35,218 nt of DNA, taken from positions 1 through 35,218 of the IMG/VR virus record IMGVR_UViG_3300009164_000019. One strand, written 5' to 3'. The position numbers and the translations under genes were made by a program. Shown piece by piece: positions 2,582-34,971 of this stretch. The notes under the pieces were generated by a model that worked only from the letters and a program-made list of their open reading frames with translations, was not told the DNA's origin and ran no database searches. Position 1 is the stretch's first letter, and every line of letters starts with the position of its first letter. This stretch comes from a virus.

Positions 2582-2591
2582 GGAAAAACAA

Positions 2592-3053: not shown

Positions 3054-3264
3054 TTTTGTCTGCGAAAGCGGACACCGGACTGAACGATACGTTGAGTTTG
3101 AACACAATATCGTTCAGTGTGATTGTGGCGCGTCGGCTAAACGCGTCATTTCTGCACCTGCAATCAAGTTGGAAGGGTGGTCTGGCTCATTCCCGTCGGC
3201 ACATGGACGGTTCGAGCAACGCCACCTGGACAAACTGAAAGCAGAGCAAAAAGCTAACTCGTAA
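3046..3264 (+). CDS. FmdB-like zinc-ribbon protein
   Basis: A 72-residue protein starting MYDFVC, with the layout of the FmdB/CxxC small zinc-ribbon family: a short N-terminal knuckle (Cys6 and His10), a spacer, a second CDCG knuckle (Cys25, Cys27), then a segment like the usual family end (KRVISAPAIKLEGW). ATG 3046 is preferred over an in-frame TTG at 3037. The role in phages is unknown; it may bind zinc or nucleic acid. It lies just upstream of the scaffold gene. Confidence 0.7.
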   Translation: MYDFVCESGHRTERYVEFEHNIVQCDCGASAKRVISAPAIKLEGWSGSFPSAHGRFEQRHLDKLKAEQKANS

Positions 3265-3319
3265 CCAATTTTGGCGAGTTAATCTCCTACAACCTTAAGT
3301 GGCAGGAAAAGGAAATAGT

Positions 3320-11846: not shown

Positions 11847-11856
11847 GGGTTAAATC

Positions 11857-13212
11857 ATGGCAGAGAGCGCAATGGGCGGGCTGTTCCAGACACCGGAAAT
11901 GTATCAGCAGGCACGACTACAGCAGCAGCAGGCGCAGGCAGCACAATACGCGCAGATGGAGCCGCTGCAACGCGCGTCATACGGCACCTATATGGCCGGT
12001 CAGCAGCTCGGCTCGGGCATTGGGCAACTGTTCGGTGTGCAAGACCCGCAACTGCGGATGATTAGCCAACAGCAGCGGATTCTCGGTCAGATAGACCCGA
12101 ACGATCCCGAATCTATCGCCAAGGGCGCGCAAATGGCCGCGCAGATGGGCAACAACAGTCTAGCTGCGGCGTTGGCTACGCGTGCGCGTGAAGCTGCTGC
12201 AACTTTAGCGCAAATACGGCAACGGACGGCAGAAAAGCAAACACCCGAGCAAAGAAACGCAGAAGCAATAAGTGCGCTACAAGAACAAATAACGCGAATT
12301 ACGGATTTGCCGGAAGACACACCAGGGCGTGAAGCGGCGTTGAAATCGTTTACGGGTCAGCTTACAACCTTACAAGGACTGACTGCTAAAGCACCGCCAG
12401 CGCAGGCTAAAGAAATTACTTTGGCTAAAGCCGCCGCCGCATTAACGGGTTTCCCAGAAGGATCGCCGCAATACAATACCGAATATGCAAAAGCCTTTAA
12501 CCGATTGGCGTATGGGGAAGATAAAGCAGCAGCGCGATTTGGCGTAGAGCGCGAGGCTATCGCGATGGAACTATACAACAAGCCATTCGCGTCGCTAACG
12601 CAACCTGAAATTGCGGCGGTCAATAAGCGCGCGGAGGCATCCGCAGCACGTAGGGGCACTGTTAAGGTAGAAAATATAATACCGGGCATAAAAGACGTAA
12701 ACGCCATAGCTGTAATGCGGGAAAAAACTTTTAATTCGGTTAAATCATTTAGGGCGACCGTCAATGAGACTGACCAAGCACTTCAGGCTCTTGATGACTC
12801 GATAAGGGCCGGGAACTACATATCCTTTAACACCGCAAGGACACAGTTAGCCAAAGCATTGTCCGGTAGCGATGTGAGTTACAAGGAGATAAAAGGCGCG
12901 GGTGGCGATCCATCACTTGTTGGCAGCTTGCTAGACGCAACTTCTACATTGTTCACTGGAACACCTACGATCGATACGCAAACAAAAATCAAAAAGACAT
13001 TACAAGCCATGCGTTTGGTTGCGCTCAATAAAGGCAAGGCAGAAATAGAGGCACAACGTAAAATAGCTAAACGGGCGGGATTTAACGAAGACGATTTTGC
13101 ATTGGCGTCTGATATCCCCGAATTTAATGCGCCTGTTGCTGGCGGTGGGGGAGCTGGATCACTGCAAGATCAAGCCGCTGCGTTGCTTCGGGAACGTCAA
13201 AAAAATAAATAG
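11857..13212 (+). CDS. Internal virion (DNA ejection) protein B
   Basis: A 451-residue, almost entirely helical protein. It opens with a Gln-rich segment (QQARLQQQQAQAAQYAQ, residues about 17-34), followed by long Ala/Glu/Lys helices and a GGGGAG spacer before a charged C-terminus. No cysteines or membrane spans are visible. The ribosome site is GGGG eight bases upstream. It is the second of the three internal-protein genes and probably packs around the portal inside the capsid. The specific family is not recognised. Confidence 0.58.
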   Translation: MAESAMGGLFQTPEMYQQARLQQQQAQAAQYAQMEPLQRASYGTYMAGQQLGSGIGQLFGVQDPQLRMISQQQRILGQIDPNDPESIAKGAQMAAQMGNNSLAAALATRAREAAATLAQIRQRTAEKQTPEQRNAEAISALQEQITRITDLPEDTPGREAALKSFTGQLTTLQGLTAKAPPAQAKEITLAKAAAALTGFPEGSPQYNTEYAKAFNRLAYGEDKAAARFGVEREAIAMELYNKPFASLTQPEIAAVNKRAEASAARRGTVKVENIIPGIKDVNAIAVMREKTFNSVKSFRATVNETDQALQALDDSIRAGNYISFNTARTQLAKALSGSDVSYKEIKGAGGDPSLVGSLLDATSTLFTGTPTIDTQTKIKKTLQAMRLVALNKGKAEIEAQRKIAKRAGFNEDDFALASDIPEFNAPVAGGGGAGSLQDQAAALLRERQKNK

Positions 13213-13228
13213 TTATTAGGGGTTTATT

Positions 13229-15886
13229 ATGGCATTGCCGTTCCCGCTAGATTTATCAAAATTATCCGACGCCGAATTAGCCGCCATTGCCTCCGGCGAC
13301 CTATCGAAATTATCCGATGCTACACTTGCGGCAATAGCTGGTGACGCCTCGCCGCCACCTAGCACCGGCGCGGTGATTGCAGAAGCACTCCGCAAAGGCG
13401 TCACCAACATACCGGCGTATGCAAGCGGGCTACTGACCGCCTATGGCGCTGCCGCAGCGCCGCAATACGGTGGCGCGCAAACTGACGTAGTTAAAGCAAT
13501 GGAAAGCGGCGCTGCTGCTGTTCGCGAGCCAGCTATGCGGTTTCTTGGCGGCACTGGTGCAGAACCCGTTACCGGCGGCCAACGTATTCTTGCGGGCGGT
13601 GCTGAAGCGGTTACCGATCCTTTGTCGTATTTGTTTGGCCCGTTGGCGGCAACAAAGCGGTTAGGCATGTTCGGCCAAGCCCTGATACGTCCGGCTGAAC
13701 AGGCCGTAGTGGGCGCGGGCGGTCAAGCTGGCGTTATTGCAGGGCAATACGCGGGTGAGAAAGTAGGCGCGCCCGGCACTGGCGCCGTGGTGGGCGGGCT
13801 ATTGGGCGGCGGTGGTGCTGGATACGGCATGGGGACTGCGCTAAAACTGACGCCTTTGGCCGGAAAAGCCTACGATGCGTCGGCAAATCTGGTCAGAAAA
13901 ATCAGAGGCGGCGCACCGGAAGACGAACTGCTGCGCGATGTGGACAGCCGTATCAATAACGTCTTTATTGCGGCGGGTGCAGCAGACCCCAATTTTATGA
14001 CCGTGCTGGAAGAAGCGGCTAAAGCACAAAAAAGCGTATCGTTGCGCGCGCCAGGCGGTGCGGAAGTCAACATGCCAATCAGCGCGCTATTGGCTGATAA
14101 TCCCGTCATCAATACGTTTATCCAAAACCTATCCTCCCGCGATCCAGTATTCCGTGCCCAATTTGGCTCGCAATATGAACTGGCAAAACGGGCGTTGACG
14201 GCCAATCAAATTCGATTGTTTGGTGATCCCGCCAACGTCGCAGTTAATCTTAAGCCCGTCGATATCGCAAAAGCGCAGACCAAAAAAGCGCAAACAATTG
14301 ACGATGAAATAGCCAGCCTATCGCGTAATCAAGAAGTCGATCCGACTGCGTTTGGGCAGCGCGTAGAGGCTTTGGTAGCGCGGAAAGAAGACGCGGCGCG
14401 TAAGTCTGTAACGCCGCTGTATACCGAAGCGTTCAAGATTGCCAAAGACAAGAATGTAGAACTCCCCGCCGCATCGGTGGATGATATCTACAATTTTGTG
14501 GCTGGCTCACAAGCCTCGGATATCTTCAAGACTTTCCCGTCGATCTACAACCGCGTGCGGTCTAAATTTCGTCCAGAAACGACTGAACCTAGCGCAATTT
14601 TAACTGTTGAAGGAAAACCGACTACCCCCGGTGGCGTAGCCTTTTCAGCCGCTACGGTAGAGGACTTGGACTCTCTCAAGAAAGAGATCAATCGTCAGTT
14701 ACGCAAGACGACCGAAGCGGCAGATATACGCCTACTGAGTGAGCTAAAGCAGCGTGTGGGCGGGCATATCGACAGCCTTGATCCCGATTTTGTCACCGCA
14801 TACCGTAACGCCGATAACGCCTATTTGCAAAAGGTCGGTCTACCGTTTAGCGCGGATACGCTCAAATTGATCGACCGTAAAAAGTTTGTCGAGCAGATTG
14901 CGCCCGCATTGATCGGCAACAAATCAAACGTGGTGCAGTTTTTGGAGGCCACGGGCGAGGAAGGCGTGCGGGTTACGCGGGATGCTTTCGTAGACAGTTT
15001 TAGCAAGGCCGCGCTAAAGAACGACGTGATCGACCCCAAAGCAGCAAATAAATGGCTTGATAAAAATAAGGGCGGCGTGTCGTTGATACCGGGCCTTGAT
15101 GACGAGCTGCGCGGTAGCGTCGATAACGTCCAAGCATTGCTTAACTACAAAACGCGGCTTAACGAACAGTTCAAACGCGTCGCTGGCGACCAGATCATCA
15201 GCAGCGAAGGGCTTAAAAGCCCACAGGAATTGGTTTCCAAAATGTATGGCGACGTAGGCTTTACGAACAAGTTTATGCAGCAATACGGCGCCAATAAAGA
15301 CGCCGTTAACGCCGCACGGTCGTTCATGCTGGATGATATTGTCACCTCCGGCGACCCGATTGGTTTGCTAAACGACCGCAGCAAGGCGGCGGTGTTCAAC
15401 CGCGTGTTTGGGCCTACCTACGCGCAAAAAGTAGCCGATTTCGCTACCGTGTCTAACCGGCTACAACGTGATATTAGCGATGTACCTTTCCGTGGCGAAA
15501 CAGTGCCAAGAACGGGGATTGAGGAATTGACGGGGCTTCCACCGGAACAAATTATTTCGCGTTTTATGAACCCCGTATCGGGGTGGCGTTACGGCGTAAC
15601 TTCATTATTTAGTAAATTTTGGGCAAATAAAGCGTCTAAAGCAACGGAAGCGCGGTTAAAAGAACTGCTGCTAAACCCAACAGACGCCGTAAAAGTTTTT
15701 GCTGCCGTTAAGCCCCGCATAGACCAATTAGATCGCGCCAAGATCGATGAGGCTATTGCGGTTGGCAAGAAATACGGTATCCAATGGGTCAAAGATGCCA
15801 TTGACAATATCCAATCGGGCGCTGCGCGTGGCGTGCTACAAGTGCCGGGGCAACCCGCGCCGCAACAAGAGGAGGCTACTCAATAA
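13229..15886 (+). CDS. Large internal virion (DNA ejection) protein C
   Basis: An 885-residue protein, the longest after the fibre. The N-terminus has a tandem 16-residue repeat (LSKLSDAELAAIASGD, then LSKLSDATLAAIAGD), a feature I recall from other phage ejection proteins. Residues about 165-215 are Gly/Ala/Val-rich and could insert into a membrane. The rest is long charged helices. There is no lytic transglycosylase motif. It ends in a Gln/Pro-rich tail whose stop overlaps the first lysis-cassette ATG. The likely role is the main channel component of the ejection machinery. Confidence 0.6.
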   Translation: MALPFPLDLSKLSDAELAAIASGDLSKLSDATLAAIAGDASPPPSTGAVIAEALRKGVTNIPAYASGLLTAYGAAAAPQYGGAQTDVVKAMESGAAAVREPAMRFLGGTGAEPVTGGQRILAGGAEAVTDPLSYLFGPLAATKRLGMFGQALIRPAEQAVVGAGGQAGVIAGQYAGEKVGAPGTGAVVGGLLGGGGAGYGMGTALKLTPLAGKAYDASANLVRKIRGGAPEDELLRDVDSRINNVFIAAGAADPNFMTVLEEAAKAQKSVSLRAPGGAEVNMPISALLADNPVINTFIQNLSSRDPVFRAQFGSQYELAKRALTANQIRLFGDPANVAVNLKPVDIAKAQTKKAQTIDDEIASLSRNQEVDPTAFGQRVEALVARKEDAARKSVTPLYTEAFKIAKDKNVELPAASVDDIYNFVAGSQASDIFKTFPSIYNRVRSKFRPETTEPSAILTVEGKPTTPGGVAFSAATVEDLDSLKKEINRQLRKTTEAADIRLLSELKQRVGGHIDSLDPDFVTAYRNADNAYLQKVGLPFSADTLKLIDRKKFVEQIAPALIGNKSNVVQFLEATGEEGVRVTRDAFVDSFSKAALKNDVIDPKAANKWLDKNKGGVSLIPGLDDELRGSVDNVQALLNYKTRLNEQFKRVAGDQIISSEGLKSPQELVSKMYGDVGFTNKFMQQYGANKDAVNAARSFMLDDIVTSGDPIGLLNDRSKAAVFNRVFGPTYAQKVADFATVSNRLQRDISDVPFRGETVPRTGIEELTGLPPEQIISRFMNPVSGWRYGVTSLFSKFWANKASKATEARLKELLLNPTDAVKVFAAVKPRIDQLDRAKIDEAIAVGKKYGIQWVKDAIDNIQSGAARGVLQVPGQPAPQQEEATQ

Positions 15887-18492: not shown

Positions 18493-18628
18493 TTTGTGTC
18501 TCCAGTTTGGCGATGGTTCGCATCACCTTAAGTAACCCGCGTTTGGCAACCGCATACTGTCGTTCTCGAATCACCAGTTCCCGTAATGCAACCTTCAGTT
18601 TGGCTTTCGCCTGTTCTTGCCTTGTCAT
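18464..18628 (-). CDS. 54-residue coiled-coil protein
   Basis: A GGAGG site precedes ATG 18628, which overlaps the helicase stop (ATGA). The product is basic and continuously helical with heptad-like Leu/Val/Ile spacing (LKVALRELVIRERQY to VMRTIAKLETQIENTKANL), consistent with a short coiled coil. Coupling to the helicase gene suggests a partner or accessory protein, by inference. No family is recognised. Confidence 0.65.
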   Translation of the reverse strand: MTRQEQAKAKLKVALRELVIRERQYAVAKRGLLKVMRTIAKLETQIENTKANLA

Positions 18629-19956
18629 TTCAAAGCCTCCATTGCTAAGTCGGATAAAGAGCGTTTGTCGTGCAATGCTACGTAAATCTTTTCGTCTACC
18701 GTGTCCTCGGTCAGCAGGACGTAAACCCACACCGCGTGCCGCTGGCCGCTGCGGTGCAGGCGCCCGATGGTCTGCTCGAACAGCTCCAGCGACCACGGCA
18801 ACGACAGGAACACCATGTGACAGCCGCCAAATTGCAGGTTGAGGCCGTGGCCTGCTGACTTCGGGTGCGCCAGCAGCAGCTCGACCTTACCGGCGTTCCA
18901 CCGGTCAATCGCGTCCGGCTCGTCCAGCGTCACCGCACGCGGATAGCGGCGCTGTAGTTCGGCCAGCTCCTCTTGGTATTGGTAGGCGATGATCGTGTTG
19001 GCGTGTTGGTTCTCGGCCAGCAGGTCGTCCAGCAGTTCAAACTTGTGGTCGGAAAACCACACCGCCGACTTGGTGGTGGTGAATTTGCCCGGACGGTCAC
19101 TCGGCGTGGTGCGGGTGTCGTAGACGAAGCCGCTGCTCATCTGTTGCAGCTTGCCCGTCACCACACCGGCGTTGGCCGCGATGGCCTGGGCGTCGGGGAA
19201 CTGCACCATGAAGTCCTTTTTCATGGCCTTGTATTCCGTCATTTCCATCGTGCAGCGCATCTCGACGATGTGCAGCGGCGGCAGCTTGTCCTTGTATTCA
19301 CCCGCATCCAAGACAAAGGTGGCCTTGCGGATACGCTCCATGACCATCGGCAGCGCGTCGGCGCGCGGCTCCCAGTCGCCGTAGTCGCGGTTGATGCAGT
19401 GGAAATACTGTTGCAGAAAAGCACCCTTGCTGCGCCCGAGGAGTGACTGGTCGATGACCTTGCACTGGCCGAATACGTCCTCCAGCCCGTTGCTGGTGAA
19501 CGAACCCGTCAGCCCCCATCGGATCGGCATGGCGTCCAGCACCTTCAGCAGTGCCTTGAACCGTTTGCCGGACGGATTCTTTAACCGCGTCAGCTCGTCG
19601 AACACCACGCCGTCAAACTGCAACGGCTGTTCGGCCAGCCATTGCAAATTGTCATAAGTGGCGACCACCACCTGGACGTTGGCGTGCAACGCCTTGACGC
19701 GCTGCGTCGGCGTGCCAATGACCACGGACAACGACAACTCGGGTGCCCACAACTTGATCTCTGTCGGCCAGACCGACTCGGCTACGCGTTTGGGCGCGAC
19801 CACCAGAAACCGCTGCACCGCCCCCTCGAATAGCATGTCGCGCATGGCGGTCAAGGTAAGCGCGGTCTTGCCCGCACCAACGGGGGCGAGAATCATCGCC
19901 CTGTCCGACTCAAACAGGAAGTCAGCGGCTATTTCTTGATACGGTCTAAGATTCAA
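18625..19956 (-). CDS. SNF2/DEAD-like superfamily 2 helicase
   Basis: A 443-residue ATPase. It has Walker A APVGAGKT (24-31), Walker B VVFDEL (Asp120, Glu121), motif III-like GLTGSF near residue 163, and motif VI QTIGRLHRSGQ (395-405) with the arginine finger region of SNF2-type helicases. The early NLRPYQ matches the Q-motif region. The start is TTG 19956 with GAGG upstream, overlapping the methyltransferase stop by 11 bases. Phage SNF2-like proteins are thought to act in replication or recombination on duplex DNA. It is grouped with VRR-NUC and the methyltransferase in the leftward early operon. Confidence 0.88.
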   Translation of the reverse strand: MNLRPYQEIAADFLFESDRAMILAPVGAGKTALTLTAMRDMLFEGAVQRFLVVAPKRVAESVWPTEIKLWAPELSLSVVIGTPTQRVKALHANVQVVVATYDNLQWLAEQPLQFDGVVFDELTRLKNPSGKRFKALLKVLDAMPIRWGLTGSFTSNGLEDVFGQCKVIDQSLLGRSKGAFLQQYFHCINRDYGDWEPRADALPMVMERIRKATFVLDAGEYKDKLPPLHIVEMRCTMEMTEYKAMKKDFMVQFPDAQAIAANAGVVTGKLQQMSSGFVYDTRTTPSDRPGKFTTTKSAVWFSDHKFELLDDLLAENQHANTIIAYQYQEELAELQRRYPRAVTLDEPDAIDRWNAGKVELLLAHPKSAGHGLNLQFGGCHMVFLSLPWSLELFEQTIGRLHRSGQRHAVWVYVLLTEDTVDEKIYVALHDKRSLSDLAMEALK

Positions 19957-21253
19957 GATACGCCTCTATAAAGACTTGCGCGACTTGCGGGACGATGGCG
20001 TTGCCGTAGGCGCGCAGTCTGCCAACGCGCCCGCCGCCCATCTCTTTTGTGCATTTATGCGGCCCCATTCCCGCGCACACAGGGCAGAACATATCGAGTT
20101 CCTCCACCGAGGCGCTGTAAAGACTATCCCGCAAATTCGGCACGTTGGCGTTGGTTTCGGATGGTGATGCCGCACATGACACTTGCGGCAAAGAATTTCT
20201 ATATTCGATGAGTTGTTGTTCATCGCGTTCCCGTCTTTGTGATGCCGATCTAAAAACTTTTTGCTCCCGCATTTCACGCACTGTGTCGCGGCATATAGAT
20301 ACTGCGCTTGATAACGCCCATTGGCGGCGGTTGTCGGCATAACTGTTATCGACTTCCCGTAACACGCCATTGAACAAAAACGCCGCCGCAAGTAATCTTT
20401 CATTTTCCGCAGTGAATTTCCGCAAAATTCGCATGTTTTCATAATTTACCGTTTCGGTTTTACACTTGGCGCAAGTATACACCACTCTGGCGGTAGCCCC
20501 ATTAACCAACGGGAATGTGCCGGATTCAACTGGCCGTGATTTTCCGTCGCGGCAGGGGAGCCAATCGCAGTCTGACCAGAAGTCAATTGCGCGGCCACGT
20601 CCAGCGTGTCCGTGCTGATTTTGTTGTTCCTCATGCGCCCCCCCCCGGTAGCCGCCCTTGTAATCGCGTGTCGAGGTGGTCGGCCAACTGGTCAAATGCG
20701 CTGCTGCTTGCAAGCCCGGCGCTGGCCCCCGCTTGTCGTCCGGTGGCCGTGGCCCACCCGTCGTGTCGCCCACTATCGGCGTCGGCCAACCGACCCACTT
20801 CGCTACGTTCGGCAGCTCGCGCTTCCCCACGCCAGCCGATCCTCGACCGTCGGCTGTTAGTGTCGTCGGCCACGAACCATAGCCGCTGTCGGATATGCGG
20901 CGCGCCGACGCCCGCAGCCGGTATACCTGCCGCCCCGCAGGCGTAGCCTTTACTTTCCAAATCAGATTGAACAAGATCGAGCCATCCGTGGTTAATCGCT
21001 GCTTCAACCTGCTCACCAAAGACAACTCCAGGGCGGCACTCGCGGATGAGATTGAACCAGACAGGCCAGAGGTGTCGATCATCAGCGGTGCCTTTTTGGG
21101 TGCCTGCGGCGCTGAAAGGCTGACAGGGGCAACTGCCCGTCCAAACAGGTCGGTCGTCGGGCCATCCGGCAAGGCGCAGGGCGTGGCTCCAACCACCAAG
21201 ACCGGCGAAGAAGTGGCACTGCACGTATCCGGTAAGATCACTTGCGCTAACAT
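19946..21253 (-). CDS. Chimeric open frame: overlapping conserved ORF (5' half) joined to Dcm C-terminus (3' half)
   Basis: As sequenced this frame encodes about 435 residues from ATG 21253, which has an AAGGAG site (21262-21267). Before the G9 tract (20638-20646) it resembles a common phage hypothetical protein seen beside cytosine methyltransferases: ALPDGPTTDLFGRAV, TPAGRQVYRLRASARRISDS, repeated WPTT/WPTP blocks. After the G tract it reads as the C-terminal part of Dcm (DFWSDCDWLPCRDGKSRPVE, later GRLRAYGNAIVPQVA, motif X). The join is unnatural. One base fewer in the G run would send the first part into the frame ending LMGLPPEW, and would join the second part to the Dcm N-terminus. A 459-bp insertion at 20024-20482 is also read through here without a stop. 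The family recollection is unverified. Confidence 0.6.
   Translation of the reverse strand: MLAQVILPDTCSATSSPVLVVGATPCALPDGPTTDLFGRAVAPVSLSAPQAPKKAPLMIDTSGLSGSISSASAALELSLVSRLKQRLTTDGSILFNLIWKVKATPAGRQVYRLRASARRISDSGYGSWPTTLTADGRGSAGVGKRELPNVAKWVGWPTPIVGDTTGGPRPPDDKRGPAPGLQAAAHLTSWPTTSTRDYKGGYRGGAHEEQQNQHGHAGRGRAIDFWSDCDWLPCRDGKSRPVESGTFPLVNGATARVVYTCAKCKTETVNYENMRILRKFTAENERLLAAAFLFNGVLREVDNSYADNRRQWALSSAVSICRDTVREMREQKVFRSASQRRERDEQQLIEYRNSLPQVSCAASPSETNANVPNLRDSLYSASVEELDMFCPVCAGMGPHKCTKEMGGGRVGRLRAYGNAIVPQVAQVFIEAYLES
19966..20442 (-). CDS. HNH endonuclease nested inside dcm
   Basis: A 158-residue protein with a first zinc knuckle pair (CEFC, FCSMAC) and a clear HNH core: CVKCG (Cys55, Cys58), His67-His68, DGN at 70-72, Asn80, and CRKC-H (Cys85, Cys88, His89) followed by HHH, the beta-beta-alpha-metal fold. 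A third knuckle (CRIC, ICSALC) lies before residue 125. Residues 1-140 come from the 459-bp insertion. Residues 141-158 (ADCAPTATPSSRKSRKSL) are the old tail of the overlapping gene. The ribosome site is weak. It probably nicks or cuts uninterrupted alleles of the locus, as free-standing phage homing nucleases do. Confidence 0.82.
   Translation of the reverse strand: MKTCEFCGNSLRKMKDYLRRRFCSMACYGKSITVMPTTAANGRYQAQYLYAATQCVKCGSKKFLDRHHKDGNAMNNNSSNIEILCRKCHVRHHHPKPTPTCRICGIVFTAPRWRNSICSALCAREWGRINAQKRWAAGALADCAPTATPSSRKSRKSL
20024..20482 (-). mobile_element. 459-bp HNH endonuclease insertion in the dcm locus
   Basis: Removing this segment joins PLVNGATARV directly to GRLRAYGNAIVPQVA in the Dcm frame, and joins LMGLPPEW to ADCAPTATPSSRKS in the overlapping frame. 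Both joins match what uninterrupted homologues look like, from memory. The exact ends are uncertain by a few bases. The length is a multiple of three. The segment encodes an HNH protein and behaves like a homing-type insertion. No group I intron core or inverted repeats were recognised. Confidence 0.6.
20446..20634 (-). other. C-terminal piece of the overlapping conserved ORF (third frame)
   Basis: This frame holds IGSPAATENHGQLNPAHSRWLMGLPPEW, the expected end region of the family whose N-terminal half starts at 21253, in a different frame from both Dcm pieces. It is joined to that half only if the G tract has eight rather than nine G; the joined protein would be 268 residues. It stops at 20446, a few codons into the HNH insertion. 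The family's usual tail (ADCAPTATPSSRKSRKSL) is found after the insertion, fused to the HNH protein. Confidence 0.55.
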
Positions 21254-21359
21254 CTTTGATGCTCCTTGTGTCAACTTCGCCTTTGGCGATATGCCCTGCG
21301 TCAATTAAGTTTCGCAACCACTGCGCGGCGTAGGGGTCAAACTCGTTGTAGTAAACCAT
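20631..21359 (-). CDS. dcm: DNA cytosine-C5 methyltransferase, N-terminal part, frame-broken at a G9 tract
   Basis: The start ATG 21359 gives MVYYNEFDPYAAQWLRNLI, the usual opening of this phage Dcm group. Motif I HFFAGLGGWS, motif IV GSCPCQPFSAAG (catalytic Cys of PCQ), motif VI VVFGEQV (Gln where most families have Asn) and motif VIII GAPHIRQRLWFVA are intact. The frame then runs into a low-complexity linker and stops just after nine G (TGA 20631-20633), so this piece of 242 residues lacks the last recognition region and motif X. These lie in another frame downstream. With eight G the full protein would be 470 residues including the HNH insertion, or 317 without it. It overlaps the VRR-NUC gene by 55 bases. 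Possible roles are protection from host restriction or regulation. Confidence 0.85.
   Translation of the reverse strand: MVYYNEFDPYAAQWLRNLIDAGHIAKGEVDTRSIKDVSASDLTGYVQCHFFAGLGGWSHALRLAGWPDDRPVWTGSCPCQPFSAAGTQKGTADDRHLWPVWFNLIRECRPGVVFGEQVEAAINHGWLDLVQSDLESKGYACGAAGIPAAGVGAPHIRQRLWFVADDTNSRRSRIGWRGEARAAERSEVGRLADADSGRHDGWATATGRQAGASAGLASSSAFDQLADHLDTRLQGRLPGGGA
20638..20646. repeat. Nine-base C/G homopolymer in dcm
   Basis: Nine C on the plus strand, nine G in the direction of transcription. It sits exactly where the Dcm frame is lost. Such runs are prone to slippage in replication and to base-calling error. Changing the count to eight restores two overlapping genes at once. Confidence 0.85.
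21262..21267 (-). promoter_or_regulatory. Shine-Dalgarno site for the ORF overlapping dcm
   Basis: AAGGAG lies eight bases before ATG 21253, inside the Dcm coding sequence. A strong, well-placed ribosome site inside another gene is evidence that the second frame is really translated. Confidence 0.6.
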
Positions 21360-22858: not shown

Positions 22859-23533
22859 ATGTCAAATATCGTCACGTTCGCAGGTGCAAAACTCCCCGCT
22901 GTTGCGTCGCTCTCGACGTCGCTCCGCAAACTGGAGGCCGACGTTGGCCCCGCCGGTGTTGTCATCTTGAAGATGGACAAGACCGGCCACTGGTGTTTCG
23001 GTGCCGATCAAACGGAAATCGAAGAAGGTTCGCAGTGGGCCGTCAATCCGTTTTCCTTCGTCCACGGCTTCATCGCGTGGGGCGACGGCGAGGTGTTGGG
23101 CGAAAAGATGGCTTCGGTCAGCGATCCGTTGCCGGAGCTGGACACCGCACCGCCGGGTGCTAAAAAGGGTTGGGAGACTCAGGTCGGCATGTCGTTGAAG
23201 TGCCTGAACGGTGAGGACGCCGGTATGGAGGCGCGCTTCACCACTACGTCAGTCGGTGGCAAGCGTGCGGTGCAGTCGTTGGCCGTCGCCATTGCCGGAC
23301 AGGTGGACACCGACCAGGCCAAGCCCGTGCCAGTGGTCGAGCTGGACACCGAGCATTACCAGCACAAGTCGTATGGCCGCATCTACACCCCGATCTTTAA
23401 GGTGTTGGAGTGGGTCAGCATTAACGGGGATGAACCGCCCCCCGCAGCAGTCGAGGCAGCAGCACCGGCACCGGCCCCCGCGCCGGAACCGGCAGCAGCA
23501 CCGGCTGGCCGTCGCCGTCGGGTCGCGGCGTAA
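22859..23533 (+). CDS. Putative ssDNA-binding protein (DUF2815-like)
   Basis: A 224-residue beta-rich protein between the nuclease and DNA polymerase genes, the usual position of a phage single-strand binding protein. The core (residues 1-185) has an OB-like sequence of strands (VVILKMDKTGHWCFG, YGRIYTPIFKVLEWV). It ends in a Pro/Ala/Glu linker (about 188-216) and a short basic end GRRRRVAA. This tail is unlike T7 gp2.5 or SSB tails, which are acidic. The family assignment is from memory. The ribosome site is AAGGAC before ATG 22859. The stop is followed at once by a strong terminator. Confidence 0.6.
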   Translation: MSNIVTFAGAKLPAVASLSTSLRKLEADVGPAGVVILKMDKTGHWCFGADQTEIEEGSQWAVNPFSFVHGFIAWGDGEVLGEKMASVSDPLPELDTAPPGAKKGWETQVGMSLKCLNGEDAGMEARFTTTSVGGKRAVQSLAVAIAGQVDTDQAKPVPVVELDTEHYQHKSYGRIYTPIFKVLEWVSINGDEPPPAAVEAAAPAPAPAPEPAAAPAGRRRRVAA

Positions 23534-23538
23534 AGAGG

Positions 23539-23564
23539 GCGGGGGCTTCGGCCCCCGCTTTTTT
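23539..23564 (+). terminator. Strong rho-independent terminator
   Basis: GCGGGGGC, a TTCG tetraloop and GCCCCCGC form an eight-bp perfect stem (23539-23558), followed by six T (23559-23564). It ends three bases before the DNA polymerase ATG, in the place where the ribosome site should be. Confidence 0.85.
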
Positions 23565-23567
23565 GAT

Positions 23568-25523
23568 ATGACGATTTTCTTGGACTTCGAAACCCGCAGC
23601 CGGTGTAACCTACCGGCGGCTGGCGTTTACAACTACGCGCGTGACGCCTCGACCGAGGTGCTGTGCATGTCCTACGCGTTCGATGGTGGTGAGGTGCAGA
23701 CGTGGCGCCCCGGTGACACCTTCCCCGCGATTGGTGACGCCCAAATCCGTGCCCACAACGCCGCTTTCGAGCGTCTGATTTTCTGGTATGTCCTCTGTCC
23801 TGAGTTCGGTATCCCCGAGCCGCCCTTGGAGCAGTTCTATTGCACGGCAGCGCAGGCCCGCGCCAACTGCGCGCCAGGTTCGTTGGAGGACGTAGGCCGC
23901 TTTGCCGGTGCGTCCATGAAGAAAGACCACCGCGGCGCGCAGCTCATCCGTCTGCTGTCGATCCCACGGGCTGACGGCACCTTTAACCACGACCCCGACC
24001 TGATGGCCGAGATGGTGCGCTATTGCGAGCAGGACGTGCGGGCGATGCGCGAGATTAGCACCGCCATGCGTGACCTGTCGGACGACGAGCTGGCCGACTA
24101 CCACGTCAACGAGCGCATCAACGATCGTGGCGTGTTATGTGACACCGCGCTGTGCCGCGCCGCCATGACCTACGCCGACGCCGAACTGATCGAAATCCAG
24201 CAAATCGTCGCTGAGGTAACCGAAGGCGAGATTACCAGTGTGCGGTCGCCCAAAATGCGCGCATGGGTGCAGGCCCGTGTCGGCCCCGAAGCCATCAAAC
24301 TGATGACCTTACACGTTGACGGTGCGGTCAAGTATTCGATCGACAAGACCGTGCGCGCTAACCTATTGCTGCTCGCCGAGGAAAACCCCGACGAGGTGCC
24401 CGCAGCCGTGGCTGATGTGATCCAGTGTGCCGATGACCTGTGGGCCAGTTCGGTCGCCAAATTCAAACGGTTGTCCGATCTGGCTGACGTGGACGACCAC
24501 CGCGTGCGTGGTGCCTTCGTCTTTGCCGGTGGTTCGGCTACTGGTCGGGCGTCGAGCTACGGCGCCCAGGTGCATAACTTCACCCGCAAGTGTGCGAAGG
24601 AACCCGACGCCGTGCGCCACGCCATGGTGCGCGGGCACCAGATTGTGCCAAACTACGGCAAGCGCGTCACCGACGTTCTCAAGGGGATGCTACGCCCCGC
24701 GCTGATGCCCGCCGCCGGTAATGTGCTGGTCGTCGCAGACTGGGCGGCGATTGAAGGCCGCGTGAATCCGTGGCTGTCCAACTGTCACGCCGGTGAAGCC
24801 AAGCTCGACGTGTTCCGGTCGGGCCTCGACCCCTACAAGGTCAACGCCACCTCGACGTTCGGCGTGGCCTACAACGACGTGACCGACATGCAGCGGCAGG
24901 TCGGCAAGGTGCAGGAACTCGCGCTAGGCTTCTTGGGTGGCCCTGGCTCGTTCGAGACTTTTGGGCGCGTCTACGGTGTCAGGATGACCGAGGGTGAAAT
25001 CGCCCGCGCCATTTCGACCTGGCGCCGGGCTAACCCGTGGGCCATGAAGCACGGCCAAGACCTTGAAGCCGCCTATACCCGCGCCTTGCGTCACAAAGGG
25101 CACGAGTGCCACGCGGGGCGCGTCTGCTACCTGTTCGACGGTCAACACCTTTGGTATTCCCTGCCGTCCGGTCGGGTGCTATGCTACCCATTCGCCCGAC
25201 TTGAACATGATGGTGTATCGTACGCCAAGGCGTCGTGGAAACCGGCGGCTGACGCGACCGAATGGCCGCGCGCCCGTCTGTGGCGCGGCTTGGCCGTCGA
25301 GAACATCACGCAGGCGACCGCGAACGATATTCTGCGCTACTCGCTGCGCCAACTGGAGGACACCGTTTTGCATATTCATGATGAGATCGTCGTCGAGTGC
25401 CCCGAGCGCATGGGTGAGGCGATGGTGTCGCGCATGCGGGAGGTGATGTGCAGACCGCCGGAGTGGGCCGTTGGCCTGCCGCTAGGCGTGGAGATTAAGG
25501 TGCAAACGCGTTACGGGAAGTGA
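23568..25523 (+). CDS. DNA polymerase, family A, with 3'-5' exonuclease
   Basis: A 651-residue enzyme. The exonuclease domain carries FLDFET (Asp6, Glu8), AHNAAFE (63-68) and YCEQDV (Asp156). The polymerase domain carries motif A VVADWAAIEGR (Asp391), motif B RQVGKVQELALGF (Arg443, Lys447, Gly454) and motif C HIHDEIVVE (His604, Asp605). All key residues are present. It is shorter than host Pol I because it lacks a 5' nuclease, as is normal for phages. ATG 23568 has no Shine-Dalgarno; the bases before it are the tail of a strong terminator. Expression therefore depends on readthrough, and translation may be inefficient. Confidence 0.93.
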   Translation: MTIFLDFETRSRCNLPAAGVYNYARDASTEVLCMSYAFDGGEVQTWRPGDTFPAIGDAQIRAHNAAFERLIFWYVLCPEFGIPEPPLEQFYCTAAQARANCAPGSLEDVGRFAGASMKKDHRGAQLIRLLSIPRADGTFNHDPDLMAEMVRYCEQDVRAMREISTAMRDLSDDELADYHVNERINDRGVLCDTALCRAAMTYADAELIEIQQIVAEVTEGEITSVRSPKMRAWVQARVGPEAIKLMTLHVDGAVKYSIDKTVRANLLLLAEENPDEVPAAVADVIQCADDLWASSVAKFKRLSDLADVDDHRVRGAFVFAGGSATGRASSYGAQVHNFTRKCAKEPDAVRHAMVRGHQIVPNYGKRVTDVLKGMLRPALMPAAGNVLVVADWAAIEGRVNPWLSNCHAGEAKLDVFRSGLDPYKVNATSTFGVAYNDVTDMQRQVGKVQELALGFLGGPGSFETFGRVYGVRMTEGEIARAISTWRRANPWAMKHGQDLEAAYTRALRHKGHECHAGRVCYLFDGQHLWYSLPSGRVLCYPFARLEHDGVSYAKASWKPAADATEWPRARLWRGLAVENITQATANDILRYSLRQLEDTVLHIHDEIVVECPERMGEAMVSRMREVMCRPPEWAVGLPLGVEIKVQTRYGK

Positions 25524-25589: not shown

Positions 25590-27881
25590 ATGGACTTTTT
25601 AGAGTTTTTCGCATCGTTAGCTCCCGAGGGAGAGAGCGCGCTAATTGTCAAACAAAAGCCCCGCACCGTCAAGGGCGTTGAGAGCTACACATGGCCCCCA
25701 TTCTTGCCGGAGAAATACCGCGCCGGTGGCGCATGGTACGGCAACACCGGTAGCTTCATCCTCGACCGTATGCGTGACGGCAAACTGAGTGCCAGCGCGT
25801 CAAACTGCACGCACTGTCTCGTGCTGGTGCTGGACGACGTGGGCACCAAGGCCAAAGTGCCGCCGCTGGCCCCGACGTGGCGCATGGAAACCTCACCCGG
25901 CAACTTTCAATACGGCTACGCCTTTAGCGAGCAGCCCTCCTGTGGCGAGTTTACCGCAGCGATCAAGGCCATCGCGGAGGCCGGATACACCGACGGTGGG
26001 GCGACCAACCCCGTGAGAAATTTTCGTCTGCCGGGCAGTATAAACTTGAAACCGGGCCGTGAGGCGTGGGCGTCGGTGCTGGTCGAATTCGAACCGGCGC
26101 GTGAGTATACGTTAGCCGAAATCTGCGCCGCCTTGGGCGTGACGCCCGCCGCGGCCGACACCGCCACCGTGCGCCGCGTCGATCTCGACGACGACGGCAG
26201 CGACGACGTGCTAGCGTGGCTCTCCGAGTCCGGCCACCTGACCGCGCACGGCAACAGCGCCGGGTGGTGGGGTGTGGTCTGCCCCAACAACGCCGCCCAC
26301 ACCACCGGCGAGATCGAGGGCCGCTACATGCCCGTCAATCGGGCCTATACGTGCCTGCACGAGCACTGCCTTGAATGGGATAGCGTCGCCTTCTTAACCT
26401 GGGTAGCCGAGCAGGGCGGCCCGTCACACGCGCCGGGGCTACGCTCCGAACTGCTGGCCCCCGTGATGCAGGCTGCATTGGCTAAACTGAAGCCCGGCGA
26501 CCTGTTCAGCGCGAAAACCGACGCCGTGGCGATGATCGCCGCCGTCGAGCGCAAAGAGTTAGGCCGCGTCGAAAAGGCCGGGTGGTATGACCGCTTCGGG
26601 TATATCCAAGCCGACGAGTCATATTTCGACCTGATCGACCGCCGCGAGATTGGCCGCACCACGTTTAACGCCCTGTTCCGGCATATTCCCTGCTATTCGA
26701 TCCACACCGACGCTAAGGGCAAGGCGCGCCGCGTCGAGGCGAGCATTTGCTACGATGAGAACCGGCAAGCCGAGGGCGCGCCCGCGCTGGTCGGCATTAC
26801 CTACTCGGCAGGCGACGGTGTGCTGGTGGCGCGTGACGGCGACACCTACGGCAACCGCTGGCGCGACGCCCGCCCGCCGATCGACCGCGAACTGGAGGCC
26901 GACATTACGCCGTGGCTTAACCACGTCGAGGCGCTGGTGCCGGTGCCCGCCGAGCGCGAGCATCTCTACGACATTATGGCCTGCAAACTGCAAAACCCAC
27001 GGACGAAGATCAACCACGCCGTGCTGCATGCCGGGGATGAAGGCTGCGGCAAGGATACGCTGTGGGCCCCCCTTCTTTGGGCCGTGTGCGGGCCGTCGCT
27101 CCGCAACCGTGGCATCATGGACAACGACACGCTAGGCAGTCAGTGGGGATACGCACTGGAGGCCGAGATTATCATCCTCAACGAATTGAAGGAACCCGAC
27201 GCCCGCGAGCGCCGCGCCTTGGCTAACCGCCTGAAGCCGATCATCGCAGCGCCGCCCGAAATGCTGTCGATCAACCGCAAGGGCCTGCACCCCTATGATA
27301 TGGTCAACCGGTGCCTGGTGCTGGCGTTCTCAAACGATCCGGTGCCGATTAGCCTAGCGTCGCAAGACCGCCGGTGGTTTTGTATCTGGTCAAGCGCGCC
27401 GAGGATGGCGCCCGCCGCCGCCGGTAAACTCTGGCGCTGGTATCAGTCGGGCGGCTTCGCCGCTATTGCCGGGTGGCTTGCACGTCGCGACGTGAGCGCG
27501 TTCAACCCCGCAGCAGCGCCGCCCGTGACGGAATTTAAAGAGAACCTGTGCGAGCAGTCCATGAGCGCGGGAGAGTCTTTTATTGTTGACCAGCTCCGCG
27601 CCCGTGCGGGCGAATTCGCCCGTGGCGTCATCGGCTCGCCGTTCCACGCGCTTTGCGATCGCTTAACCGGCCCCGCGGGTTTTAAGGTGTTCCAGTCTCA
27701 ATTGCTGCACGGGTTACGGGAGGCTGGCTGGATCGACTGCGGGCGCGTCGCCGCCGCCGAATTCAAAACTAAAAAACACGTTTACGCCGCGCCCGAAATG
27801 GCAACGCTCTCAAAATCAGAGCTTAGGCGCGCCGTTGAACCCAACGCCGGTGGCGCCAACGTGCGCGCGATCGGCTTCTAA
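25590..27881 (+). CDS. Primase-helicase (AEP primase-polymerase with SF3/DUF5906 helicase)
   Basis: A 763-residue, two-part protein. The N-terminus has a primase-polymerase-like core: LVLVLDDVG (Asp82, Asp83) and VRNFRLPGSINLK (143-154). A zinc-binding linker follows (Cys231, His237, Cys255, Cys260). The C-terminal half holds Walker A LHAGDEGCGKDT (479-490), a Walker B-like IIILNEL and a VLAFSNDPVPI segment, typical of DUF5906 superfamily 3 helicases. The combination resembles NrS-1-type phage primase-polymerase-helicases. The ribosome site is CAGGAAACG. It is the last gene of the rightward replication block and would supply primers and unwinding for the neighbouring polymerase. Confidence 0.85.
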   Translation: MDFLEFFASLAPEGESALIVKQKPRTVKGVESYTWPPFLPEKYRAGGAWYGNTGSFILDRMRDGKLSASASNCTHCLVLVLDDVGTKAKVPPLAPTWRMETSPGNFQYGYAFSEQPSCGEFTAAIKAIAEAGYTDGGATNPVRNFRLPGSINLKPGREAWASVLVEFEPAREYTLAEICAALGVTPAAADTATVRRVDLDDDGSDDVLAWLSESGHLTAHGNSAGWWGVVCPNNAAHTTGEIEGRYMPVNRAYTCLHEHCLEWDSVAFLTWVAEQGGPSHAPGLRSELLAPVMQAALAKLKPGDLFSAKTDAVAMIAAVERKELGRVEKAGWYDRFGYIQADESYFDLIDRREIGRTTFNALFRHIPCYSIHTDAKGKARRVEASICYDENRQAEGAPALVGITYSAGDGVLVARDGDTYGNRWRDARPPIDRELEADITPWLNHVEALVPVPAEREHLYDIMACKLQNPRTKINHAVLHAGDEGCGKDTLWAPLLWAVCGPSLRNRGIMDNDTLGSQWGYALEAEIIILNELKEPDARERRALANRLKPIIAAPPEMLSINRKGLHPYDMVNRCLVLAFSNDPVPISLASQDRRWFCIWSSAPRMAPAAAGKLWRWYQSGGFAAIAGWLARRDVSAFNPAAAPPVTEFKENLCEQSMSAGESFIVDQLRARAGEFARGVIGSPFHALCDRLTGPAGFKVFQSQLLHGLREAGWIDCGRVAAAEFKTKKHVYAAPEMATLSKSELRRAVEPNAGGANVRAIGF

Positions 27882-30680: not shown

Positions 30681-30747
30681 CGGATAAAAACAGAATGACA
30701 ATAGTGCCAATATGACTATTTTGGGGTTTGGCGCTAGAATCGCGGGC

Positions 30748-30948
30748 ATGATAGGTAGACCATGCAAAATTGACACCGTAGCCTTTCGTCGCCCGCTTAC
30801 GCCAGTGGCGCGCGCGGTTTTATTAGCTGCGGGCGCGGGCGATCTTTCGCAAGGCTGGCATGAGCTTTTGTCGATCTACCAGCATTTGCACGCGCTTGGG
30901 TATCGCCCCGGCATGAGGCCCGAAAATATAGCGTTAGTGAAAAAATAG
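30748..30948 (+). CDS. Hypothetical 66-residue protein
   Basis: Starts MIGRPCKIDTVAFRRPLTP and contains GDLSQGWHELLSIYQHLHALGYRPG. The form recalls small phage proteins with a short helical DNA-binding segment; no family is named with confidence. A longer in-frame start at 30712 exists; neither has a clear ribosome site. It stands alone on the plus strand before the repeat array and small terminase gene. Confidence 0.55.
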   Translation: MIGRPCKIDTVAFRRPLTPVARAVLLAAGAGDLSQGWHELLSIYQHLHALGYRPGMRPENIALVKK

Positions 30949-31281
30949 GCATAAAAGCCTGCCCCGCCCCCGTTTATAGGCCCATTAAATAAATTTATAG
31001 CTCCCCGCTCGCTGGCTGGCTGGCTGGCTGGCCCGCTGGCTGGCTGGCTGGCCCGCTGGCTGGCTGGCCCGCTGGCCCGCTGGCCCGCCTGCCAGGACGA
31101 TTTGACATAACGTGGCTTGGTGGCTGGAAGACATGGGGGGGAGGGGGTCTGGCTGGCACGAGAACTTTGCGGTGCCCCCCACCCACAAAAAAAGAGCAAA
31201 ATGGCGTATGTAGTCTACTTACAGCCAAACGGTAGCGATTTGTCCAGCGATGGGTTATAGTCAGTGACAAAGAGGGCCAAT
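30949..31281. other. Non-coding region upstream of the terminase genes
   Basis: About 330 bases without a credible gene. It contains an AT-rich patch (around 30980-31000), the stepwise GCTG/GCCC array (31011-31086), a TTGACA hexamer at 31102 without a good -10 box, a G-rich stretch (31135-31147) that can pair imperfectly with a later C-rich stretch (31175-31184), and the leader of the small terminase. Position and structure fit a packaging recognition site or replication origin; this is inference. Confidence 0.5.
31011..31086. repeat. Stepwise-shortening GCTG/GCCC tetranucleotide array
   Basis: Five consecutive blocks, each made of GCTG units closed by one GCCC. The number of GCTG units falls from 5 to 4 to 3 to 1 to 1, so block lengths are 24, 20, 16, 8 and 8 bases. 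The array is perfect, with no substitutions, and lies in the non-coding region upstream of the small terminase gene. Confidence 0.9.
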
Positions 31282-31635
31282 ATGGACAATCCACCGGTTA
31301 AAGACGGTAGACCCAAACGGTATCGCGCACCGAAGGTGCTGCCGAAGACGGACTACCAGCGGTTGAACGAGTTAAAGCAGATGTTGCTGGATAGCAGTGG
31401 TCGGCGCGTGGTGCAGAAGGTGGTAGACATTGCGATGGACGACGGGCATCCGAGTCAGATGGCCGCGTTGAAGTTGTGTATGGAGCGCACGTTACCGGTG
31501 AGCATGTTTGAGAAGGACAAGGGCCACCGCGGTGCGGTGACGATCAACATCACTGGTATTGGCGAAGTCACCACCGGCGCGATCATAGATGCGACGCCGG
31601 AACCGGAAGACGTAGATGCAGAGGATGCGACCTGA
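31282..31635 (+). CDS. Terminase small subunit
   Basis: A 117-residue protein directly upstream of the large terminase, with stop and start overlapping (TGATG). The basic N-terminus (GRPKRYRAPKVLPK), a helical middle (YQRLNELKQMLLDSSGRRVV, then SQMAALKLCMERTLP) and an acidic C-terminal tail (TPEPEDVDAEDAT) fit a small terminase: DNA binding, oligomerisation, and contact with the large subunit. ATG 31282 with AGAGGG upstream is preferred over GTG 31264. It probably recognises the packaging site, perhaps in the adjacent repeat region. Confidence 0.7.
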   Translation: MDNPPVKDGRPKRYRAPKVLPKTDYQRLNELKQMLLDSSGRRVVQKVVDIAMDDGHPSQMAALKLCMERTLPVSMFEKDKGHRGAVTINITGIGEVTTGAIIDATPEPEDVDAEDAT

Positions 31636-32891
31636 TGGCCGATCTGAACTTCAGTCTGCTGCCCTGGCAGCAAGACGTCTTCAAGGACACCACGCGGTTC
31701 AAGGTCATCGCGGCGGGGCGGCGCTGCGGCAAGTCGAGGCTGGCGGCGACAACGCTGTTGATAGAAGGTCTGCGCTGCCCGCAAGGGTCAGCGGTGCTGT
31801 ATGTCAGCCCGACGATGGGGCAGTCCAGACAGATCATCTGGGATTTGTTGCTCGATCTTGGGAAGGAGGTGATCCAGTCGAGTCACGTCAACAATCTGGA
31901 TATCACGCTGATTAACGGGGCGCGCATCTACGTCAGGGGCGCGGACCGACCGGACACGCTGCGCGGGGTGAGCTTGACGTATGCGGTTCTGGATGAAGTG
32001 GCCGACATCAAGCCGGAGGCGTGGGAGCAGGTCATACGGGCCTCTCTGTCAGACAAAAAAGGCCGCGCCATCTTCATCGGTACTCCCCGTGGCCGCAATT
32101 GGTTCTACGATCTGTTCAATCTGGGGAAGAATGAGACAGATGCCGATTGGAAGTCTTGGCATTTCACGACCAAAGACAATCCGATGATTGATCCGGACGA
32201 GATCGAGAGTGCTAAGAAGACGTTATCGAGCTTCAGTTTCAAGCAGGAATACATGGCGAGTTTTGACACCGCTGGCAGCGACGTCTTCAAAGAGGAGTGG
32301 CTGAAATATGGCGAAGAACCCGAAGTTGGCGGCTACTACATCGCGTGTGATCTCGCGGGGTTTGAAGAAGTCGCCAAGCAAGCAGCGAATTCGCGCAAGA
32401 GGCTCGACGAATCCGCTATCGCAGTGGTCAAGGTTACTGATGATGGCAAGTGGTGGGTTAAAAAGATTGACCACGGTCGTTGGGATATTAAGGAAACGGC
32501 GTCGAATATCCTGATGGCGATCAGGGATTACCGACCGGTGGCGGTGGGGATTGAGCGCGGGGCGTTGAAAAACGCGGTTTTGCCGTATTTGAGTGACTTA
32601 ATGCGGAAAAGTAATGTATATTCCCACATTATTGACCTGACGCATGGCAACCGTAAAAAGGCCGACCGGATCATCTGGTCGCTACAGGGCCGTTTCGAGC
32701 ATGGTCGGGTGATCCTCAACAGTGACGAGGACTTTGACGAATTTATAGACCAGTTGTTGATGTTCCCCGCGCAGGGCGTACACGACGACCTGCCCGACGC
32801 GCTGTCATACATAGACCAGTTAGCGATAACGTCGTATTTTGAGGAACAGGAAGACACCTGGTCACCCATCGACGTAGTGTCGGGAGTCTAA
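31635..32891 (+). CDS. terL: Terminase large subunit
   Basis: A 418-residue packaging motor. The ATPase domain has Walker A AGRRCGKS (27-34), Walker B TYAVLDE (Asp120, Glu121) and the coupling motif IFIGTPRG (147-153). The nuclease domain has YIACDLAG (Asp239), GIERG (Glu307) and VHDDLPDALSY (Asp384, Asp388), the RNase H-like catalytic set. All key residues are present and the length is normal for short-tailed phages. It is coupled to the small subunit and followed at once by the portal gene. Confidence 0.93.
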   Translation: MADLNFSLLPWQQDVFKDTTRFKVIAAGRRCGKSRLAATTLLIEGLRCPQGSAVLYVSPTMGQSRQIIWDLLLDLGKEVIQSSHVNNLDITLINGARIYVRGADRPDTLRGVSLTYAVLDEVADIKPEAWEQVIRASLSDKKGRAIFIGTPRGRNWFYDLFNLGKNETDADWKSWHFTTKDNPMIDPDEIESAKKTLSSFSFKQEYMASFDTAGSDVFKEEWLKYGEEPEVGGYYIACDLAGFEEVAKQAANSRKRLDESAIAVVKVTDDGKWWVKKIDHGRWDIKETASNILMAIRDYRPVAVGIERGALKNAVLPYLSDLMRKSNVYSHIIDLTHGNRKKADRIIWSLQGRFEHGRVILNSDEDFDEFIDQLLMFPAQGVHDDLPDALSYIDQLAITSYFEEQEDTWSPIDVVSGV

Positions 32892-32895
32892 TAAT

Positions 32896-34971
32896 ATGGC
32901 GTTTGAAAAAGACAGCGAAACCGGCGACGAGAACGGCGTCACCGGCGAGTATGAATACGAGCAGCCGAGCGAAAATGATCGCGAGCTGACTTCATTCGTA
33001 ATTGACCACTGCGACCGCTGGCGCACCTACCGCGATACGAACTTTCTGGCGTTGTGGGAGGAATACGAGCGCATCTTTCGCGGCCAATGGTCGGCGCAGG
33101 ACAAGCTGCGCGACTCCGAGCGCAGCCGCATCGTCACGCCAGCCGCGCAGCAGGCGGTGGAAACGCGGCACGCGGAGATCATGGAGGCGATCTTTGGACA
33201 GGGCGACTTTTTCGACATTGAGGACGATCTGCGGGATGTGAACAACAACCCGCTGGACGTGGAGATGTTGAAAGCGCAACTGATGGAAGATTTCAAAGTC
33301 GATAAAATCCGAAAGGCGATCGACCAGATCGAGCTGATGGCCGAGATTTACGGCACCGGCATCGGCGAGATTGCGGTGATTACGGACAAGGTGTTCGTTC
33401 CAGCCACGCAACCGATACCGGGGCAGATGGGCCAAGCGGCGATTGGCGTGCGGGAGAAGGATCGCATCGGCGTCAAGATCGTGCCGGTCAACCCCAAGAA
33501 TTTCCTGTTCGACCCGAACGGCACCAGCATTGATGACTGTCTCGGCGTGGCGATCGAGAAATATATCTCCATCCACAAGATCGTCAAAGGGCAGGAAGAC
33601 GGCATCTACCGCAAGGTGGAGTTAGGCACCGACTCGGAAGACACCAAGCTGGAGCCGACGCAGGAGATCACGCAGTATCGCGACGACAAGGTGCGGTTGC
33701 TGACCTATTACGGTCTGGTGCCGCGCGAGCTGCTGATGAACAGCGACGAGAACAAGGATATCGTCGATCTGTTCCCCGAGAGTTCAGCGCAGGATGAGTA
33801 TTCTGATTTGGTCGAGGCCATCGTGGTCATCGCCAATGAGAGCGTGCTGCTAAAGGCCGAAGAAAGCCCCTACATGATGAAGGATCGTCCGGTGATTAGT
33901 TACCAGGACGACACGGTGCCGAACCGCCTACTCGGGCGCGGCACGATTGAAAAAGCCTACAACATGCAGAAGGCGATCGACGCCCAGGTGCGTAGCCATC
34001 TGGATTCCTTGGCGCTGACAACCAGCCCGATGATTGCGATGGACGCCACACGTCTACCGCGAGGGGCAAAGTTTGAAGTGAAGCCCGGCAAGGCCATCCT
34101 GACCAACGGGGCGCCAGCAGAGATTCTGTATCCGTTCAAGTTTGGCAGCACTGATGGCAACAATCTGGCAACCGCCAAGGCGTTCGAGACCATGCTGCTG
34201 CAAGCGACCGGCACACTGGACTCGCAGGGCATGGTTAGCCAGGGCAACCGCGACGGTGCGGGTATGTCGATGGCGGTGGCGACCATCATCAAGAAATACA
34301 AGCGCACGCTGGTGAACTTCCAAGAGGATTTCCTGATCCCGTTTATCCACAAGGCAGCGTATCGGTATATGCAGTTTGATCCCGAGCGTTATCCGTCTGT
34401 GGACATGAAGTTTATCCCGACCGCGACCTTGGGCATTATTGCGCGGGAATACGAGCAGCAGCAGTTTATCGGTCTGTTGCAGACCTTGGGGCCGGATACG
34501 CCAGTGCTGCCGCTGATCCTGAAGGGTATCTTGGGCAATTCCAGCCTATCCAACCGCTATGAGCTGATTGCCAAACTGGACGAAATGTCGCAACCGAACC
34601 CGGAAGCGCAGCAGATGCAGCAGATGCAGCAGCAGTTGGCGATGCAGTCGGCGCAGTCACAGATCGCGCTCAACACCACGCAGGCCGAGCAGAATCGGGC
34701 CGAGGCTCAGAAATTGCTCACCGAAACGCAATTGATGCCGAAGGAAACGGAGGCCAAGATACTGGCGTCGGTGACCAAGAATCTGCCAAACGCGGATGAT
34801 GCCAACAGCCGCGAGTTTGACAAGCGGGTCAAGATTGCGGAACTGATGCTGAAGGAAGCTGACATTAAGAACAAGAGCAAGATCGTCGAATTGCAGATGC
34901 AAAACAAGCGCGACAGTTTGCGATCAGTTGAGAATGATTTTCTAGACCAATTGTCTGGAGCTTTGAAATGA
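32896..34971 (+). CDS. Portal protein
   Basis: A 691-residue protein directly after the large terminase, the standard position. N-terminal RWRTYRDTNFLALWEEYERIFRG and RSRIVTPAAQQAVETRHAEI, and a central RPVISYQDDTVPNRLLGRGT segment are portal-like. The C-terminal third is helical and Gln-rich (EAQQMQQMQQQLAMQSAQ, about 570-620), which could form the barrel that extends into the capsid. The length is closer to P22-type (around 725) than to T7-type (around 535) portals. Its stop overlaps the fibre ATG. Confidence 0.88.
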   Translation: MAFEKDSETGDENGVTGEYEYEQPSENDRELTSFVIDHCDRWRTYRDTNFLALWEEYERIFRGQWSAQDKLRDSERSRIVTPAAQQAVETRHAEIMEAIFGQGDFFDIEDDLRDVNNNPLDVEMLKAQLMEDFKVDKIRKAIDQIELMAEIYGTGIGEIAVITDKVFVPATQPIPGQMGQAAIGVREKDRIGVKIVPVNPKNFLFDPNGTSIDDCLGVAIEKYISIHKIVKGQEDGIYRKVELGTDSEDTKLEPTQEITQYRDDKVRLLTYYGLVPRELLMNSDENKDIVDLFPESSAQDEYSDLVEAIVVIANESVLLKAEESPYMMKDRPVISYQDDTVPNRLLGRGTIEKAYNMQKAIDAQVRSHLDSLALTTSPMIAMDATRLPRGAKFEVKPGKAILTNGAPAEILYPFKFGSTDGNNLATAKAFETMLLQATGTLDSQGMVSQGNRDGAGMSMAVATIIKKYKRTLVNFQEDFLIPFIHKAAYRYMQFDPERYPSVDMKFIPTATLGIIAREYEQQQFIGLLQTLGPDTPVLPLILKGILGNSSLSNRYELIAKLDEMSQPNPEAQQMQQMQQQLAMQSAQSQIALNTTQAEQNRAEAQKLLTETQLMPKETEAKILASVTKNLPNADDANSREFDKRVKIAELMLKEADIKNKSKIVELQMQNKRDSLRSVENDFLDQLSGALK

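Follow-up and report, generated by a model that had tools for sequence, protein, structure and literature searches.

The described systems closest to the locus analyzed here are the replication origins built on DnaA boxes or iterons (bacterial oriC and plasmid origins), the packaging sites cos of phages lambda and HK97 and pac of P22 and SPP1, the short repeats SRL and SRR near the genome ends of T7, and the mitochondrial element CSB II. Among plasmid origins, the oriV of RK2 or RSF1010 has a comparable layout. As in DnaA-box and iteron origins, relatives of the phage under study have clusters of exact DnaA boxes, or else palindromic repeats, whose distance to a GC-rich and then AT-rich element is conserved, and the repeat type follows the replication proteins. 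Unlike those origins, the repeat of the phage itself is a 4-bp/8-bp minisatellite in a putative slot, and four repeat families interchange beside one core. This core resembles cos and pac in being a non-coding element of fixed spacing near the gene for the small terminase subunit (TerS) in a conserved virion module. However, its distance from TerS can exceed 1 kb, contig ends are not confined to a single base, and the adjoining repeats do not track the TerS sequence. With SRL and SRR the locus has in common that short tandem repeats adjoin a processing region in a genome of podovirus type, but the units are different and the array is far more variable here. CSB II also contains two G-runs split by one A and followed by T in a replication control region, and in human CSB 2 a quadruplex and R-loop have been tied to replication priming (PMC5027508). 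The first G-run of the phage core is longer than that of CSB II and the T6 tract is missing; the likeness is likely convergence at most.

The stretch of DNA analyzed (the window, 35,218 nucleotides) is a circular assembly with a 123-bp end overlap, representing a podovirus-like uncultured freshwater phage. Relatives, also uncultured, were collected from IMG/VR by the large terminase subunit (TerL; 80 relatives), and more were added by the core pattern, the small protein orf78 and a second TerL. No close cultured phage was found for the DNA, TerS or the core in the phage collection searched. Matches to cultured phages were distant, both for TerL (25% identity, T4-like) and for the portal (21-28%; HMO-2011/Pelagibacter type and others), and the solved relatives of TerL were 4zni (E 3e-17) and T4 gp17. 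TerS had no family match; close to its N-terminus it carries a GRP motif of AT-hook-like type, more commonly RGRP in relatives, and its structure model was of low confidence (pLDDT 58). The virion genes and orf78 were common to all full-length genomes compared. In relatives orf78 has 66-90 aa without any family match, and in another clade (L315) a possibly related protein is encoded about 2.4 kb upstream of the core. Elsewhere in the window, the stretch 10632-15886 between the tail and lysis genes encodes three large proteins of 404, 451 and 885 aa that matched no PHROG, and a SNF2-type helicase gene followed by a DNA methyltransferase-like gene lies at 18625-21304 (-) beside a nuclease gene. 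PAPS reductase-like auxiliary genes were seen in relatives (L187:13645-14493 and L196:1228-2079).

Table 1. Features of the window that bear on the repeat locus, in order of position
Feature	Position	Strand	Basis
PolA-type DNA polymerase, only in the GC-rich-array clade	23211..25523	+	PHROG DNA polymerase E 2e-82
D5/DUF5906-type primase, only in the GC-rich-array clade	25590..27881	+	–
orf78, small conserved protein, bordering the slot on the left in most relatives	30712..30948	+	Conservation; no PHROG or Pfam match
AT-rich patch, upstream of the array	30979..31001	.	Direct sequence
Whole repeat slot: array plus imperfect flanking units (CCCGCTC at 31004; GTGGCTTGGTGGCTGG at ~31112-31127)	31004..31128	+	Positional equivalence in 219 distinct upstream regions
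GCTG/GCCC tandem array, blocks 5-4-3-1-1	31011..31086	+	Direct sequence; hypervariable in relatives
Conserved 60-bp core: G7AG5T, AT core GAGAACTTTG, C-rich tract, A7G	31135..31194	+	Fixed-spacing alignment, 125 distinct copies in 158 loci
Probable small terminase subunit (TerS)	31282..31635	+	Position before TerL, conservation in 31 diverse members
Large terminase subunit (TerL)	31635..32891	+	PHROG terminase large subunit E 7e-48
Portal protein	32896..34971	+	PHROG portal E 4e-38

The GCTG/GCCC array is perfect, as the preliminary description had reported. Its 76 bases form 19 four-base units, (GCTG)5 GCCC (GCTG)4 GCCC (GCTG)3 GCCC GCTG GCCC GCTG GCCC, in which every GCTG block ends with GCCC. 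The surroundings also agreed with that description: the non-coding gap beside TerS, given there as about 330 bp, measured 333 bp from the end of the small ORF at 30948 to the TerS ATG at 31282, and the AT-rich patch near the array was located at about 30980-31000. Runs of GCTG/GCCC reached at most 8 bases in the rest of the window and 12 bases in 200 shuffles, compared with 76 in the array. Tandem Repeats Finder called a 20-bp period repeated 2.7 times at 100% (31015-31068) and, as a second call, a 16-bp period repeated 5.3 times. The 5-4-3 blocks are mostly one repeated 20-bp unit shedding a 4-mer, and the 1-1 blocks are a repeated 8-bp unit; the staircase therefore requires no special mechanism. 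Repetition of the 20-bp and 8-bp units accounts for much of the regularity. Given the block sizes, a strictly falling order has a chance of about 1/60, or 1/30 for either direction, for a pattern that was spotted post hoc. The descending order had no equivalent in relatives and would represent a single snapshot of repeat turnover. A hairpin formed by the array was rejected, as folding energies on both strands were no better than those of shuffles. Chi sites were also discarded as a candidate, GCTGGTGG being without enrichment upstream of the core.

An identical array was present in contig L002, which is 99.9-100% identical over 13.3 kb, and the array is therefore probably not an assembly slip. 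In other relatives the corresponding gap was filled by GC-rich GGCTCGTC units (L005), by GGCCTGAT/GGCCTGGT/GGCCCGCT units (L007 and L204), by a 15-bp unit (L009) or by GC-rich filler of low complexity that lacks regular tandem units (L208-L212), and in L004 and L207 the core was present with no recognizable repeats in the slot. The preliminary description had suggested a search for equivalent arrays and had counted their absence from close relatives, together with virion ends mapped far away, as evidence against its proposal; such absence was seen only in part, with a different array in some close relatives and no array in two. The repeat units of close relatives share the loose 8-bp form GGCYNGNY, and to judge from these units the 4-bp array of the window is probably one state of a GGCYNGNY minisatellite. 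L204 contained about 640 bp of the same 8-bp units of which L007 and L205 contained about 450 bp, a difference of about 190 bp between near-identical flanks. Both unit and length thus vary among near-identical genomes, as in a VNTR and as expected from the earlier suggestion of a fast-evolving slippage array. Meanwhile, the DNA of TerS, TerL and portal was 86-95% identical among phages whose arrays differ or are absent, and on that account the array cannot serve TerS as a sequence-specific site. The proposal that it is a small-terminase platform was not supported, as phages with nearly the same TerS (L004, L207, L005, L007 and L204) had unrelated arrays or none.

The most interesting object in the region is the conserved core together with the exchangeable slot, just outside the segment singled out in the preliminary description. 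Across relatives, and with almost constant spacing, the core has 7-10 G, A, 3-5 G and T; roughly 12 variable positions separate this part from an AT core, after which come a C-rich tract and an A-run. Its AT core reads TAGATATTTGTGG in the largest group and GAGAACTTTGCGG in the window. It was kept in every relative with sequence reaching its position, as one copy per genome in a single orientation, and loci first scored as lacking it had a variant core, a core further upstream or a truncated contig. The distance to TerS was usually 85-340 bp upstream. In 24 loci of another clade it was 400-1300 bp, and no orf78 was detected beside the core. An exact-pattern scan of bacterial genome contigs did not find the strict core pattern. 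A structured RNA was rejected, with no Rfam match and almost no covariation. The core was common to phages with unrelated replication genes and was linked to virion genes; a phage-encoded PolA was dismissed as the reason for it, because the core is retained where PolA is absent. The core could be an origin core or a packaging site, and both could hold together.

Slot classes were scored over the 400 bp upstream of the core in 219 distinct regions. The GGGTAAACCC-type class accounted for 128/219 regions, at least two exact DnaA boxes for 36/219, AGTnAGTnCTnACT for 12/219 and GGCYNGNY for 4/219, leaving 39/219 unclassified. The repeat families were mutually exclusive, with 0/219 regions in two classes, and the GCTG/GCCC array is assigned by its units to the GGCYNGNY class. 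DnaA 9-mers had a density of 1.69/kb within the scored 400 bp and of 0.018/kb elsewhere in the same loci, a difference of about 95-fold. The regions of the DnaA class held 2-6 exact boxes each, and in several lineages of this class the boxes stood at fixed distances from the G-tract: about 24 or 34 bp for the closest one, two spacings that differ by one helical turn, and then about 58, 224 and 247 bp. No DnaA box was found in the slot of the window. Other sequences were also noted in the upstream regions. A Fur-box-like sequence, AGAATCATTCGCA, was seen in 82 distinct upstream regions, about 75-126 bp from the G-tract (in the slots of L025, L031 and L034, for example). Relatives of the L025 type had AGGGTAAACCCT / GTAGAAACCCT repeats and CTGTATG..AGACAGT motifs; 9-mers of the repeats were in most upstream regions and were absent or nearly so in the 3 kb downstream.

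The slot was compared with the replication genes in 29 long contigs, six of which encoded a phage primase-helicase of about 670 aa. DnaA-box slots were found in 6/6 contigs with primase-helicase and in 0/22 scorable others, a strong association though one not corrected for shared ancestry, and the six primase-helicases fall into groups that are only 30-36% identical to one another. GC-rich arrays, in turn, were seen solely in phages with PolA and the D5-type primase. The repeat type thus matched the encoded replication proteins, as at an origin, and by these comparisons the slot type tracks the replication genes, not the terminase. Two observations on these genes were made separately. In two relatives the PolA match contained in-frame stops, unlike the copy in the window (2 TGA and 2 TAG in G002, the contig of L005; 1 TAG in G003, the contig of L007). 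One contig of 41153 bp (G035, the contig of L335) held two primase-helicase copies near its ends, at 1644-3677 and 34756-36789, perhaps reflecting an over-long circular assembly or a chimera.

These data suggest, at even chances in our judgment, that the array is a hypervariable minisatellite in the initiator-binding slot of a phage replication origin region. In the DnaA-box clades, host DnaA would load at the slot and open the DNA at or beside the core. The clade of the window, with its own PolA-type polymerase and D5-type primase, would leave DnaA unused, and its slot may have turned into a GC-rich repeat whose length rises and falls through slippage or unequal exchange. This repeat might be loosely bound by a putative phage initiator, or be retained merely as a spacer. 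On this account, the simplest one, the initiator-binding slot would be exchanged together with the replication module. The earlier idea of a platform for an origin protein gained indirect support from the DnaA boxes and other repeats that occupy the same slot elsewhere and match the replication genes, although not from the slot of the window, which is without a DnaA box; origin function in the window would follow from its relatives. GC skew fits a nearby origin but is confounded by gene orientation. Weighing against an origin are the place of the core in the virion-gene module, shared across unrelated replication genes, which also fits a packaging site, as well as the two relatives without repeats and the regions outside any class.

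It is possible, though we lean against it, that the array is a functionless slippage repeat in a non-coding gap. Its rapid change in unit and length, its absence from L004 and L207 and the irregular filler of L208-L212 are all consistent with neutrality. However, the array has no counterpart elsewhere in the genome, and such repeats arise at a single site, the very one that DnaA boxes or other repeats occupy in other clades.

Somewhat less probable, and on balance unlikely, is a core that acts as a pac or cos-like packaging start recognized by terminase, with the array as a neutral neighboring repeat, perhaps enlarged by DNA-end processing after the cut. The usual position of the core upstream of TerS, its single orientation and fixed spacing, its G-rich 5' flanks on both strands and its membership in the shared virion module would suit such a site, as would the relation of TerL to headful terminases. 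The 24 loci with a distant core do not fit readily. Contig ends were enriched around the core but were spread over many bases instead of one, circular assemblies run through it, and the enrichment is explained equally well if assemblies break at a shared G-rich sequence. Moreover, packaging leaves unexplained both the fixed distances of the DnaA boxes and the match between slot and replication genes.

A CSB II-like core, at which a G-rich transcript (with the array in its leader) would stall and an RNA-DNA hybrid quadruplex and R-loop would prime DNA synthesis, is improbable: G7AG5T resembles human CSB 2 (G5AG7 to G6AG9) (PMC5027508) and rightward transcription would always have the G-tract on its non-template strand, but this is resemblance only, no long T-tract follows the G-tract, and phages that encode no PolA-type polymerase retain the core.

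Returning to the array as part of an initiator-binding slot, a bolder version, which we regard as doubtful, is that the core is a universal adapter coupling different initiators to one replication start or packaging step. The slot would then be swapped, between DnaA boxes, palindromic repeats and a GC-rich minisatellite, whenever the replication genes are, and the array would be a new kind of fast-evolving initiator platform. If these proposals are right, a probable origin or packaging start has been identified for a widespread phage group without a close cultured relative in the collection searched. The group would also offer naturally occurring origin variants that combine one core with several initiator systems, making the role of the core directly testable.
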